NCBI GenBank assembly: GCA_903885085.1
Contig: CAISHH010000076.1
Location: 1 to 49,096, forward strand
Origin: an uncultured Campylobacterales bacterium
GTDB lineage: Bacteria > Campylobacterota > Campylobacteria > Campylobacterales > Sulfurimonadaceae
DNA: 49,096 nt
Direction: 5' to 3'
This document shows positions 27,272-33,170 of this stretch, piece by piece. The notes beneath the pieces are model-generated. The model saw nothing but the letters and a program-made list of their open reading frames with translations, was not told the origin of the DNA and did not search any database. Position 1 is the first letter of the stretch. The number at the start of each line of letters is the position of its first letter. A program made the position numbers and the translations under genes.

Positions 27272-28066
27272 ATGAATGTTATAGAATTAACAGCAATTAT
27301 CAGTTTTGCATTTTTAGGTTCTATTGGTCATTGTATTGGCATGTGCGGTGGCTTTATTATGACATACACGATGGCAAAAGTAAAACCTACGGATTCAAAA
27401 TTTGTACAATCTCTCTATCATCTTTCATATAATCTTGGTCGCGTTACAACATACACTATACTGGGTGCTCTTTTTGGATATTTTGGATCGTTATGGGAAA
27501 TAAATCCGCTTGTCAGATCGATAATGTTTTCTTTAGCTGGTATTTTGATGGTCGTTATGGGACTTTCTTTTGCCGGAAAACTTAAATTTCTTAATTCGAT
27601 TGAAATACCTATTAGTAACTATAGCTGGTTTAAAAAAATGTTTATGTATCAGATGAATTCTGGAAACAAAAGCAGTTTTTTTGTCCTAGGTATGCTCAAT
27701 GGTCTTTTCCCTTGTGGCTTGGTGTATACGATGTTAGTTACAGCTGCAACAACATCCTCGGCATTTTATGGCGCACTTGTAATGTTTATTTTTGGAATAT
27801 TTACAATACCGACACTTTTTACTTTCGCTTTCGTTGTCAGCTTGTTTTCTGGACAAAAATTTCGAGCACTGATGATCCAACTTGCCGCATTGACAGTTAT
27901 AATTTTTGGAATTTGGACAATTTATAAAGCATACCTTCAATTTGATTTTTGGTATAACACCGATAAAGATGTACAAAAAGTCGAACCAACTAAGATGAAG
28001 TGTGGCCCAGCCATGAAATGTGCCGCAGGTAAATGTGGCACGGGTAAATGTGGCTCGAAGCAATAG
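27272..28066 (+). CDS. SafE/DsbD_2-type membrane protein with Cys-rich tail, probable cbb3 copper factor
   Basis: A 264-aa polytopic protein (about six membrane segments) of the sulfite exporter TauE/SafE or DsbD transmembrane group. It has GHCIGMCGGF near the N-terminus (C21, C25) and NGLFPCGLVY (C148), both recurring in this family. The C-terminal tail (about 240-264) is a short cysteine-lysine-glycine repeat with MKC, KCA and KCG units, four Cys in all, likely to bind metal. It lies 191 bases upstream of ccoN, so copper or heme handling for the oxidase is a reasonable inference; direct homologues near cbb3 genes are known for this family. It is not a proven copper transporter. Confidence 0.7.
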   Translation: MNVIELTAIISFAFLGSIGHCIGMCGGFIMTYTMAKVKPTDSKFVQSLYHLSYNLGRVTTYTILGALFGYFGSLWEINPLVRSIMFSLAGILMVVMGLSFAGKLKFLNSIEIPISNYSWFKKMFMYQMNSGNKSSFFVLGMLNGLFPCGLVYTMLVTAATTSSAFYGALVMFIFGIFTIPTLFTFAFVVSLFSGQKFRALMIQLAALTVIIFGIWTIYKAYLQFDFWYNTDKDVQKVEPTKMKCGPAMKCAAGKCGTGKCGSKQ

Positions 28067-28257: not shown

Positions 28258-29757
28258 ATGGAAAATCGTCCATTAGAGTATGACTATACAGTTGCTAAGA
28301 TGTTCATGCTTACAACAGTTCTTTTAGGAGCTGTAGGTATGCTTATCGGTGTAATTTTGGCTTCGGAAATGGCTTTTCCTGGTGTTAATACAATGCTTGG
28401 AAGCTTAGGTCTGAACGAATTTACAAACTTTAGTCGTTTGCGTCCGTTACATACGGATAGTGTTATTTTTGGTTTTACGTTAAGTGGTATTTTTGCTACT
28501 TGGTATTACGTTGGTCAACGTGTATTGAAAGTTTCTATGGCAGAGTCTAAATTGCTTATGTTTCTTGGAAAAATGCACTTTTTCTTATACGTACTCGTTG
28601 TTGCTGCAGCAGTAGTATCTTTATTTATGGGTATTACAAGCTCAAAAGAGTATGCAGAATTTGAATGGCCGATAGATATCGCCGTTGTTGTTGTATGGGT
28701 AACATGGGGTCTTGGTATTTTTGGTCTTATCGGTATTCGTCGTGAAAGATCTTTGTACATCTCAATTTGGTACTATATTGCTACTTTCTTAGGTATAGCT
28801 ATGCTTTACTTATTTAACAATATGGAAATTCCTACAATACTTGCGACATCACCAGCTGGTGAAACAGGTATAGGTGCATGGTATCATTCAGTTTCTATGT
28901 ATTCAGGTACAAATGATGCGCTAGTTCAATGGTGGTATGGTCACAATGCAGTTGCATTTGGATTTACGGTGCCTATCGTTGCAATGATTTACTACTTCTT
29001 ACCAAAAGAGTCTGGTCAAGCAGTTTATTCATATAAACTTTCTTTACTCTCTTTTTGGGGATTGATGTTTGTTTATTTATGGGCAGGTGGACACCACCTT
29101 CTTTTCTCTACTGTTCCAGACTGGATGCAAACTATGGGATCTGTTTTCTCTGTAGTTCTTATTTTGCCTTCATGGGGTTCTGCGATCAACATGCTTCTAA
29201 CAATGAAGGGTGAGTGGCAACAAGTTGCAACATCTCCATTGATTAAATTCATGGTTTTAGCTTCTACTTTCTATATGTTTTCAACACTAGAAGGACCAAT
29301 TCAAGCTATCAAATCTGTAAATGCAATTGCACACTTTACTGACTGGATCGTTGGTCACGTACATGATGGTACACTTGGATGGGTTGGATTTATGATTATG
29401 GCAGCATTATTTCATATGGCACCACGTGTATTTAAACGTGAACTATATTCTAAATCATTGATGGGAACACAGTTCTGGATTCAAACTTTAGGTGTTGTTT
29501 TATACTTCACTTCAATGTGGATCGCTGGTATAACACAAGGTATGATGTGGCGTGCTCACGATGAATACGGTAACTTAGCTTACTCTTTTATCGATACAGT
29601 AACAGCTCTTCACCCTTACTATACAATCCGTGCTGTCGGTGGTCTTTTATATCTAATAGGTTTCTTTATGTTTGCATATAACATTTATAAAACTATGACA
29701 TCAGGTCGTCGTGTTGAAGAGAGCGAGCTACAAAGCGCTTCTCCTATGGCAGCATAG
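28258..29757 (+). CDS. ccoN: cbb3-type cytochrome c oxidase subunit I
   Basis: Catalytic heme-copper subunit that reduces oxygen to water and pumps protons at low oxygen. The 499-aa protein has about 12 hydrophobic segments with heme and copper ligands in RLRPLHTDSVIFGF, WYGHNAVAFGFTVP (CuB His), WAGGHHLLFS and WIVGHVHDGTLGWVGF. The start is ATG 28258, with AAGGAGG directly upstream; an upstream TTG is rejected. First gene of the ccoNOQP operon, which also carries several small and accessory genes downstream. Confidence 0.97.
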   Translation: MENRPLEYDYTVAKMFMLTTVLLGAVGMLIGVILASEMAFPGVNTMLGSLGLNEFTNFSRLRPLHTDSVIFGFTLSGIFATWYYVGQRVLKVSMAESKLLMFLGKMHFFLYVLVVAAAVVSLFMGITSSKEYAEFEWPIDIAVVVVWVTWGLGIFGLIGIRRERSLYISIWYYIATFLGIAMLYLFNNMEIPTILATSPAGETGIGAWYHSVSMYSGTNDALVQWWYGHNAVAFGFTVPIVAMIYYFLPKESGQAVYSYKLSLLSFWGLMFVYLWAGGHHLLFSTVPDWMQTMGSVFSVVLILPSWGSAINMLLTMKGEWQQVATSPLIKFMVLASTFYMFSTLEGPIQAIKSVNAIAHFTDWIVGHVHDGTLGWVGFMIMAALFHMAPRVFKRELYSKSLMGTQFWIQTLGVVLYFTSMWIAGITQGMMWRAHDEYGNLAYSFIDTVTALHPYYTIRAVGGLLYLIGFFMFAYNIYKTMTSGRRVEESELQSASPMAA

Positions 29758-29775: not shown

Positions 29776-30468
29776 ATGTTTCATTGGTTAGAAAAACATC
29801 CGTTCTTTTTCGCGGTAGGTGTATTTTTAGTAATTGCGTTTGCAGGTTTAGTTGAAATACTTCCAAACTTTGCACAAGCTTCTCAACCAGTTGTTGGTAC
29901 AAAACCATATACTTTGTTAGAGATGGCTGGACGCGAAGTTTATATCAAAAATAGTTGTAATGCTTGTCACTCACAACTTATTCGTCCGTTTAAAGCTGAA
30001 ACTGACCGTTATGGTCATTATTCTCTAAGTGGAGAGTATGCTTATGATCGTCCATTCCTTTGGGGTTCAAAACGTATCGGTCCAGATCTTCACCGTGTTG
30101 GTGATTATCGTACGACTGACTGGCATGAAAACCATATGAAAGATCCTGCAGGAGTTGTTCCTGGTTCTATTATGCCAGCTTATGCGTGGATGTTTACAAA
30201 CTTAGCTGATATCAATACTGCATATGCAGATCAGTTAACAAATGCAGAGTTTTTCAATGTGCCATACAATAAACCGGTACCTATGAAAGATGGGACAACT
30301 TTAACTGTGCCTATGGCAAAATCAGTAGCAGAAGCAAATGCAATGGCATTAGAAGAAGCAAAAGCGATTACTGCTGATATGAAAGATAAAGATGTTCAAG
30401 ATATGGTTGCAGCAGGTAAAATTCCTGAAATCGTAGCTTTAATTGCATACTTAAACAGTTTAAAATAG
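29776..30468 (+). CDS. ccoO: cbb3-type cytochrome c oxidase subunit II (mono-heme)
   Basis: A membrane-anchored cytochrome c delivering electrons to CcoN. The 230-aa protein has one N-terminal membrane segment (10-30), the heme motif CNACH at 61-65, RPFKAETDRYGHYSLSGEYAYDRPFLWGSKRIGPDL and the methionine region PGSIMPAYAW. A Lys-Ala-rich insertion near 165-205 (EANAMALEEAKAITADMKDKD) precedes the C-terminus. An AGGGGGAAAA site precedes the ATG. Confidence 0.96.
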   Translation: MFHWLEKHPFFFAVGVFLVIAFAGLVEILPNFAQASQPVVGTKPYTLLEMAGREVYIKNSCNACHSQLIRPFKAETDRYGHYSLSGEYAYDRPFLWGSKRIGPDLHRVGDYRTTDWHENHMKDPAGVVPGSIMPAYAWMFTNLADINTAYADQLTNAEFFNVPYNKPVPMKDGTTLTVPMAKSVAEANAMALEEAKAITADMKDKDVQDMVAAGKIPEIVALIAYLNSLK

Positions 30469-30477
30469 GGGTGTAAG

Positions 30478-30678
30478 GTGGATATTTTTCAACTTCAAGG
30501 GTACGCTTATTTTGGACTTGTTACATTGATGGTGGTTGTACTTTATAGTTATATCTATCATCTTTACAGTAGTGAAAAAAAAGGGACTAAAGATTTCGAG
30601 AAGTATGGAAATATGGCCTTAAATGATGAGATTGATGATACTCCGGTTGAAAAAATCTCTAAAGATGAAAAAAAATAA
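30478..30678 (+). CDS. ccoQ: cbb3-type oxidase subunit CcoQ (FixQ)
   Basis: A 66-aa single-span membrane protein with a hydrophobic segment about 8-28 (YFGLVTLMVVVLYSYIYHLY) and a charged C-terminal tail. GTG start at 30478. Its size, topology and place between ccoO and ccoP identify it; sequence alone would be weak. Confidence 0.85.
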   Translation: MDIFQLQGYAYFGLVTLMVVVLYSYIYHLYSSEKKGTKDFEKYGNMALNDEIDDTPVEKISKDEKK

Positions 30679-30691
30679 GTAGGAGGCATAT

Positions 30692-31642
30692 ATGAATAAG
30701 CTTTATTTAGCGGGTGTGGCTATTGTTGCTGCGATGCTAGGTTTTACATATGTTGCGATGGATATCAAGGGTGGTCTTAATGGTGACATAGTCAACATGT
30801 TGGCTATCGCTGGTGCTGTCGTACTTGTAATCGCAACAGTTTTTGTTGTTACAAAATATGTTCGTCAAATGCAATCTGACACTGCAACTGGTGATCTTGC
30901 AGAAGAAAATTGGGATAGTATTGGTGAGTATAAAAATCCACTTCCAATGGGATGGGCCATTATATTCTTAGGGTTAATTGTTTGGGCAGCTTGGTATTTC
31001 TTAGCTGGTTATCCAGTAAATGCTTACTCTCAAATTGGTGAGTATAATGAAGACTCTGCAAAAGTAAATGCAAAGTTTGAAGAAAAATATAAAAACTTAT
31101 CAACAGAAGAACTACATAGTATGGGTGAATCTGTTTTCTTGGTAAACTGTGCACCATGTCACGGCCTTGCAGCTGATGGTATGGATGGAAAAGCGGCTAA
31201 TCTTACAAAACGTTTAGAAGCTAAAAGTGTTGTGTACGTTATCAATCACGGTTCTATGAACAATATCGCAGTTCACACTGATGATAATGGAAGTAAAACT
31301 ACAAGTGCTATGCCTGATCGTAACGGATTGTTCAACTCAGCTACAAATGCATTGATTACAGATGCAGAGATAGAAAAAGTTGCTACGTATGTTGCAAATG
31401 GGATGAAAGGTGATGGTGCTGATGTTTTCGCTAGTACTTGTTCATCATGTCATGGGGCTGATGGTAAAGGTATGGATATGGTTGCGCCAAACATAGCTGA
31501 TTTCACACCTGCTTTTGTTTCAGATATTTTATCACATGGTAAAAAAGGCGCTATCGGTACAATGCCAGCGTTTACAAACCTAAATGCTACTCAAGTAAAA
31601 GCTGTTTCGACTTACATCACTGATATAAGTAAAGGAGAATAG
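30692..31642 (+). CDS. ccoP: cbb3-type oxidase di-heme subunit III
   Basis: A 316-aa protein with two membrane segments (about 5-25 and 35-58), another hydrophobic stretch at 90-108, and two class I cytochrome c domains with heme motifs CAPCH (153-157) and CSSCH (250-254), each followed by the usual Met region (SAMPDRNGLF, IGTMPAF). Receives electrons from soluble cytochromes for CcoO/CcoN. An AGGAGG site lies before the ATG. Confidence 0.97.
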   Translation: MNKLYLAGVAIVAAMLGFTYVAMDIKGGLNGDIVNMLAIAGAVVLVIATVFVVTKYVRQMQSDTATGDLAEENWDSIGEYKNPLPMGWAIIFLGLIVWAAWYFLAGYPVNAYSQIGEYNEDSAKVNAKFEEKYKNLSTEELHSMGESVFLVNCAPCHGLAADGMDGKAANLTKRLEAKSVVYVINHGSMNNIAVHTDDNGSKTTSAMPDRNGLFNSATNALITDAEIEKVATYVANGMKGDGADVFASTCSSCHGADGKGMDMVAPNIADFTPAFVSDILSHGKKGAIGTMPAFTNLNATQVKAVSTYITDISKGE

Positions 31643-31644
31643 TA

Positions 31645-31863
31645 ATGGTAGATAATAATTTCAAAGGTTCTGGTGTATTTTCACTTGATGGAATTACAGG
31701 CATGTTAATAGCTACTGTATTGTTACTATCTATTTTAGCCGGTTTAACTATATGGGGCTTGGGTGTTCAACAAGCGAATCAACAAAAGTTTTATAAAATT
31801 GTTGATGAAAAGTCTATTAAAATGATTGATCCTACAAACGGTACACACCGTGTATTAAACTAA
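31645..31863 (+). CDS. DUF4006 small membrane protein
   Basis: A 72-aa protein two bases after ccoP, with one membrane segment (about 18-40, GMLIATVLLLSILAGLTIWGLG) and a short polar tail ending HRVLN. It fits the DUF4006 family that, in Campylobacterota, follows ccoP. The role is unknown but the position implies cbb3 assembly or stability. Confidence 0.8.
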   Translation: MVDNNFKGSGVFSLDGITGMLIATVLLLSILAGLTIWGLGVQQANQQKFYKIVDEKSIKMIDPTNGTHRVLN

Positions 31864-31873
31864 GGAGTTGGTT

Positions 31874-31963
31874 ATGGAAAAAATATTATCAATTGGTTTA
31901 GTTATATTGGCTGCAATTACATTGTGGTCAGTATTCACTCCAAATCACCTTTATTTAGGTTAA
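31874..31963 (+). CDS. 29-aa single-span membrane micro-protein in the cbb3 operon
   Basis: A 29-codon ORF, too short for standard gene calling. An AAGGAG (31862-31867) precedes the ATG by 6 bases. The peptide begins MEKILSIGLVILAAITLWSV, a hydrophobic helix of about 18 residues, and ends with a short polar PNHLYLG tail. It fits exactly between DUF4006 and the TPM-like gene, whose TTG start directly abuts its TAA. Its size and topology resemble CcoM, a small cbb3 subunit described in Pseudomonas stutzeri, though homology is not shown. The intact ribosome site and exact packing make it probably real. Confidence 0.7.
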   Translation: MEKILSIGLVILAAITLWSVFTPNHLYLG

Positions 31964-32677
31964 TTGAACTTGAATAAGTTTAATCGAGGGCTTTGTGCCC
32001 TCATCCTTCTGTTTTCTACGTTTTCTTCACTTTCTGCAGAGTATTTATATAAAGATGAAGTTTTATTTAACCCTAAATTGACAGAAGATGTCGAAAAGAT
32101 GGGCAAAGAACTCCATGATAAGACTGGAATCGCTTTACGCTTGGTTGTCATAAAAGAGTTTGATCAAAATCAAACAATAGTTGAATATGAAAAAAATCTT
32201 ATAAAGAATTTTAATGAGCCAACTATATTATTAACGTTTTCTGAGTTAAACCAAAAAGTTGATATACTTTGTCGTCCAGAATCTTTATATAAATACTTTG
32301 ATAAAAAGCAGATTTTGTCTCCGACTGCTACGGGTGTACAGGCATTTTTTATGGCTGTTTTCTTTAGCTCAAGTTTTGATGATTTTAAGAATAATTTAAC
32401 TGACTACGGCGGATCAATTATCCCTTTGCTTGCTGAAAAATCAAAAGGCAATGAAACGATTAATAAGTATAGCGCTTCACTTTTTAACGGATATGCAGAT
32501 ATTGCAGAGCAGGTTGCAGAATCAAAAAATGTGAAATTGGATACTGCTGTTGGAAATACAAACCGCAATGCCATTGAGATAGTTAAAATTGTATTTTATC
32601 TAGGTGTCTTGTCTGGACTTTATTTATATATAAAAAGAAAAATCTATATGAAAAAGAGTGCCAATGAAAAAAAGTAG
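31964..32677 (+). CDS. Exported TPM-like membrane protein of the cbb3 cluster
   Basis: A 237-aa protein. TTG 31964 immediately follows the previous stop; another TTG lies two codons on. A signal peptide (about 7-25) ends with SLSA. The periplasmic part (about 30-190) includes LTEDVEKMGKELHDKTGIALRLVVIKEF and ILLTFSELNQKVDI, reminiscent of the TPM/YgcG domain. A C-terminal membrane segment (about 208-226) is followed by a basic tail. Location before the CcoH-like gene suggests a role in oxidase biogenesis; the family call is tentative. Confidence 0.55.
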   Translation: MNLNKFNRGLCALILLFSTFSSLSAEYLYKDEVLFNPKLTEDVEKMGKELHDKTGIALRLVVIKEFDQNQTIVEYEKNLIKNFNEPTILLTFSELNQKVDILCRPESLYKYFDKKQILSPTATGVQAFFMAVFFSSSFDDFKNNLTDYGGSIIPLLAEKSKGNETINKYSASLFNGYADIAEQVAESKNVKLDTAVGNTNRNAIEIVKIVFYLGVLSGLYLYIKRKIYMKKSANEKK

Positions 32678-33170
32678 AGGTCTTCAATGGCCTATCGGTA
32701 TAGCAGTAGCTCTTGTATTAGTTATAGGAATGGGTGCATGGACAATTGTTGAAACGTCAAAAGAGGGTGTTCAGGAGAGTGACATCTATATGACGAATTA
32801 TCAGGATGCTGATACAGACGCGAACAAGCTTATTAATGCGAAAATCGCCTTTAATAATCAGTATAAAATCGAGTATATAAGTAAACAACTGAATGCAGAT
32901 GATGCGAAAATAGAATATAAAATCACGTCAAAAGATGGAAAGCCGGTTAATGATGCGAAACTAAAAGTTATCGTGACAAGACCTCAAGTTCATGACGAAG
33001 ATATTACGCTAGAAAATCCAAAAGTAAATGATGGTGTGTATAGTTTTGATACAAAACTTCCAGGTATTGGAAGATGGGATATTATGGCTTTTGTAGAAGT
33101 AGGGTCTTTAAAACGTTACTACAACTTAAAAGTTGATACAAGATTTGATCTTAAACCAGTAGTTTATTAG
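32664..33170 (+). CDS. FixH/CcoH-type cbb3 assembly protein
   Basis: A 168-aa bitopic protein with a membrane segment near residues 9-29 (WPIGIAVALVLVIGMGAWTIV), then a periplasmic beta-rich domain with the FixH pattern YMTNYQDADTDANKLI and VSVTR-like IVTRPQVHDED, DGVYSFDTKLPGIGRWDIMAFVEVG. CcoH/FixH proteins stabilise assembly intermediates of cbb3 oxidase. ATG 32664 is preferred to the GTG two codons upstream. It overlaps the preceding gene by 14 bases and ends 6 bases before addB. Confidence 0.75.
   Translation: MKKSRGLQWPIGIAVALVLVIGMGAWTIVETSKEGVQESDIYMTNYQDADTDANKLINAKIAFNNQYKIEYISKQLNADDAKIEYKITSKDGKPVNDAKLKVIVTRPQVHDEDITLENPKVNDGVYSFDTKLPGIGRWDIMAFVEVGSLKRYYNLKVDTRFDLKPVVY

Follow-up and report, generated by a model that had tools for sequence, protein, structure and literature searches.

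Why an open reading frame of only 29 codons should be maintained in the middle of an operon for a cbb3-type terminal oxidase, and what its product does there, is the question raised by this locus. In the window (the whole stretch of 49,096 nucleotides analysed) the operon lies on the plus strand and was delineated with Pfam profiles. It begins with ccoN for the catalytic subunit (28258..29757), ccoO for the monohaem cytochrome c subunit FixO (29776..30468), ccoQ with a GTG start (30478..30678, also recognised by NCBIfam TIGR02736) and ccoP for the dihaem cytochrome c subunit (30692..31642). There follow ccoX (31645..31863), encoding a 72-aa DUF4006 (PF13179) protein with one helix (PMC8267372), the small frame, ccoY (31874..31963), then ccoZ, whose product combines a signal or anchor sequence with a TPM domain and a C-terminal helix (31964..32677; TTG start; Pfam and structure model), and finally the FixH/YtkA-like ccoH (32664..33170).

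The small frame, also on the plus strand, extends from an ATG at 31874 to a TAA at 31961-31963 and encodes the 29-aa protein MEKILSIGLVILAAITLWSVFTPNHLYLG, an assignment that rests on the translated frame, its relatives and a frame test. It is tightly packed: the AAGGAG ribosome-binding site (31862..31867, plus strand) overlaps the ccoX stop codon (31861-31863) and is separated from the ATG by 6 nt, and the TTG start of ccoZ (31964) abuts the ccoY stop codon. The first-pass annotation had described just this arrangement between DUF4006 and the next gene, along with a single hydrophobic helix and a short tail, and both descriptions hold. Indeed, the product contains one strong hydrophobic segment (best 17-residue Kyte-Doolittle mean of 2.45, starting at residue 4), and AlphaFold2 models a 31-aa form of the protein as a single helix spanning residues 2-23, followed by a less certain tail. 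Since the charges flanking the helix are almost balanced, the orientation with the N-terminus inside is inferred. An SD-like motif of at least 4 bases precedes the gene in 75 of 80 named relatives. Neither Pfam nor NCBIfam profiles match the 29-aa protein, nor do NCBIfam profiles match its C. jejuni counterpart Cj1485; it gives no FixQ/CcoQ profile match, and ccoQ is a distinct gene in the same operon. That the frame is unannotated in this genome is plausible, as 29-aa forms are smaller than the usual annotation size; the NCBI annotation of strain NCTC 11168 contains no ORF below 30 aa (PMC11955535).

A frame this short could arise by chance, a possibility ruled out by the frame test and by conservation. 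Among 104 distinct relatives the ccoY frame is free of stop codons in every one, whereas the other two frames are interrupted in 102 and 46 of them. Over the same 104 distinct sequences pN/pS is 0.28 in frame, while the other frames give 1.02 and 1.88, all values being computed from sequence pairs that are not independent of one another. By these sequence measures ccoY is under purifying selection. A translated search with the 29-aa protein returned matches in 49 of 60 relatives. For a wider view we gathered distinct DUF4006 loci across the Campylobacterota sample, 144 in all, in 142 genomes: a profile search recovered the small protein in 110 loci at E < 1e-5, and the remaining 34 were inspected by eye. 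In every one of the 144 loci ccoX is followed by a small frame for a single helix, some 29-37 aa long, with ccoG lying in between in four. The search at the same locus in other Campylobacterota that the first-pass annotation had proposed thus finds the frame retained throughout, and the absence or disruption in most relatives that would have spoken against it is not seen. The f14 family, probably Helicobacteraceae, carries a divergent form, for example MKFTTLEKILALMIVTTILMTAIISFVPNLFLFST, that a profile comparison ties to the common form with a probability of 92%.

The most conserved trait is the tail, mostly T-P-N-H-L-[FY]-[VI]-G (T-P-N-H-L-Y-L-G in the window), which ends in Gly in 99 of the 104 sequences. 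In loci of the f9 family, such as L115 and L123, a 30-aa protein bears a tail like D-S-A-R-V-F-V-G in place of T-P-N-H-L-F-V-G, and the His often gives way to a positively charged R or K. As a separate observation, some members of two families have the FixG-like ccoG between ccoX and ccoY (L094, L101, L129, L140, L157-L159, L161).

The first-pass annotation had suggested that the frame may encode an oxidase subunit of this phylum that had escaped annotation. That the frame is real and specifies a small, conserved membrane protein within the cbb3 operon stands, but the protein is not new, since it corresponds to CcoY (Cj1485). The same gene order was described in 2021 in Campylobacter jejuni (PMC8267372), where the genes were named ccoX (cj1486c, DUF4006), ccoY (cj1485c, 33 aa with one helix), ccoZ (cj1484c, with a TPM domain) and ccoH (cj1483c). 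We recognised the C. jejuni genome in our collection (G146) by the primer sites printed in that paper, eight of nine tested sites being present. The gene directly after ccoX in this genome encodes MSKALEYLIVIGLVAAAAITAWSVLTVNHLHIG, which has the 33 aa stated for Cj1485 and is 59% identical to the window protein. Given the same locus, this length and this identity, the window frame is, judged from sequence, ccoY, an orthologue of Cj1485. Both lie between ccoX and ccoZ, both consist of a single helix and their C-termini match, whereas the C. jejuni protein has four extra N-terminal residues (33 versus 29 aa) and ends in TVNHLHIG rather than TPNHLYLG. With 29 aa and a single helix, the window protein agrees with the size and topology of CcoY (about 33 aa, one central helix), most relatives having 29-37 aa.

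The gene and its phenotype are already known in C. jejuni (PMC8267372), and the present result is an addition to that gene-deletion work rather than a new system. Deletion of cj1486c or cj1483c abolished oxidase activity, while deletion of cj1485c or cj1484c lowered it; the drop in the cj1485c mutant was significant and was not restored by copper. The resistance cassette used for the deletion has a promoter and lacks a terminator, a design meant to limit polar effects; the portions of PMC8267372 available mention no genetic complementation for the ccoY mutant. Blue-native bands contained CcoN, CcoO, CcoP, CcoH, CcoX and CcoZ, and CcoY is not among the proteins listed from them; its absence is weak counter-evidence, as the protein is very small and has few tryptic sites. 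What the comparison adds is that the protein accompanies cbb3 across the phylum. In literature searched by gene names, where PMC8267372 was the sole relevant match, we found neither this distribution nor the conserved tail, the ccoG insertion or the second operons described below.

As for the linkage to the oxidase, 380 of the 397 Campylobacterota genomes sampled contain DUF4006, and FixO is also missing from 20 of the 21 genomes without DUF4006; the sole DUF4006-lacking genome with FixO (G266) has a contig that ends after ccoP. The association also emerges from the peptide alone: scanning the GTDB genome collection for W[SA]V[LF]TPNH, a query derived from closer sequences, gave 101 confirmed relatives, and in the 80 that were kept ccoX lies directly 5' of ccoY without exception and ccoZ directly 3' in 77. 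The titles of these 80 name Campylobacterota in all but one ('bacterium'). Thus, cbb3 co-occurs with ccoX and ccoY across Campylobacterota, and a protein of 29-33 aa that annotation easily misses goes with this oxidase in the whole phylum.

Which of the accessory genes travel with the structural genes can be seen in three genomes, judged to be Arcobacter-like, that possess two cbb3 operons (G371 = L245, G406 = L246, G486 = L248). The second operon comprises ccoN, ccoO, ccoP, ccoX and ccoY and is devoid of ccoZ and ccoH, with ccoQ also gone in two of the three. Over ccoP-X-Y its DNA is 97-99% identical to that of the first operon, and the DNA common to both copies ends 6-17 nt past the ccoY stop codon. 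Since the same gene, resembling nitrite/sulphite reductases, comes after ccoY in all three, the second operons may stem from one event. As they keep ccoX and ccoY and drop ccoZ and ccoH, the former two group with the structural genes, which does not in itself prove that the proteins are present in the complex. It is CcoX and CcoY that are likely parts of the enzyme itself, CcoZ and CcoH less so.

We therefore favour, with a probability of about 0.72, the scenario that the window frame encodes a CcoY orthologue which presumably acts as an accessory subunit, a single helix lending stability to the CcoNOQP core. Expressed from the ccoNOQPXYZH operon, CcoY would span the inner membrane once, with its N-terminus probably inside and its short conserved C-terminus exposed at the outer face. 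It would pack against the CcoNOQP core along with CcoX and stabilise the assembled oxidase, such that its loss would lower activity rather than abolish it. The defect of the C. jejuni mutant probably lies in the oxidase itself, since the assay (PMC8267372) used ascorbate/TMPD, a donor that supplies the oxidase directly rather than through the bc complex. A bolder and distinctly more tentative proposal is that cbb3 oxidases throughout Campylobacterota require CcoX and CcoY as structural subunits, that the core is N-O-P-X-Y with CcoQ dispensable, and that the CcoY tail binds on the outer side, close to the cytochrome c subunits.

The main rival to a subunit role is that CcoY is a transient assembly factor, akin to copper or haem delivery proteins, rather than a lasting component. 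Its gene does sit between structural and biogenesis genes, the biogenesis gene ccoG even separates it from ccoX in some members of two families, and a partial loss of activity would be compatible with a helper. However, one encoded copy of such a factor would suffice for both oxidases, yet ccoY was copied with the structural genes into second operons without ccoZ and ccoH and was kept even where the copy lost ccoQ. The failure of copper to rescue the mutant (PMC8267372) likewise does not fit, and we regard a helper as unlikely. It is also conceivable, if improbable, that CcoY and CcoZ hold oxidase and cytochrome bc complex (QcrABC) together as a supercomplex. The two genes adjoin, and CcoZ of the window, modelled as a TPM domain, weakly matches subunits of mycobacterial III-IV supercomplexes (8ovc_V at E 6.7e-3, 6hwh_O at 0.029, 6adq_J at 0.038), as reported for Cj1484 too (PMC8267372). 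Its best matches are nonetheless other TPM proteins (3pvh, 3ptj), second operons retain ccoY with no ccoZ beside it, and the activity defect is seen with a donor that bypasses the bc complex, so that a role solely in linking to this complex is less likely.

Tight packing, with stop and start codons adjoining in the window and overlapping in C. jejuni, could also mean that ccoY is a translated spacer whose sole role is to couple the translation of ccoX and ccoZ. This is hardly credible, as selection acts at the amino-acid level (the in-frame pN/pS), the gene is kept where ccoG intervenes upstream or ccoZ is missing downstream, and the C. jejuni mutant has a phenotype (PMC8267372).

The likeness in size and topology to CcoM, which the first-pass annotation had pointed out, is borne out by the 29 aa and one helix. 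CcoM of the Pseudomonas stutzeri cbb3 oxidase, with 36 aa (PMC10433244), is likewise a very small single-helix protein tied to this enzyme class. Homology, however, finds no support in the sequences and is considered improbable: among solved-structure sequences no oxidase chain was matched with E up to 10, by single sequence or profile, and the matches kept from the genome collection are all Campylobacterota or titled only 'bacterium'. The searched set includes entry 5djq, though not necessarily its CcoM chain, and short helices readily lose sequence similarity, so that these negatives are not decisive. The sole profile match was a PilA helix (E 0.66). The nearest solved CcoN chains, that of P. 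stutzeri included, obtain similar scores, so that the set seems to contain no Campylobacterota cbb3 structure. By analogy, CcoY may nevertheless work like CcoM. A precedent within the phylum is CioY, a 34-aa single-helix partner of the C. jejuni terminal oxidase CioAB that binds CioA by co-immunoprecipitation (PMC11955535); it differs from CcoY in belonging to a bd-type enzyme and another gene neighbourhood.

Two neighbouring genes deserve mention. Among the TPM proteins to which the CcoZ model (31964-32677) shows resemblance are photosystem II repair proteins and a subunit of a mycobacterial respiratory supercomplex. Immediately 5' of ccoN, the window encodes a DsbD_2-type membrane protein (27272-28066) whose C-terminal tail contains Cys and Met and which is possibly linked to the copper or thiol supply of the oxidase.
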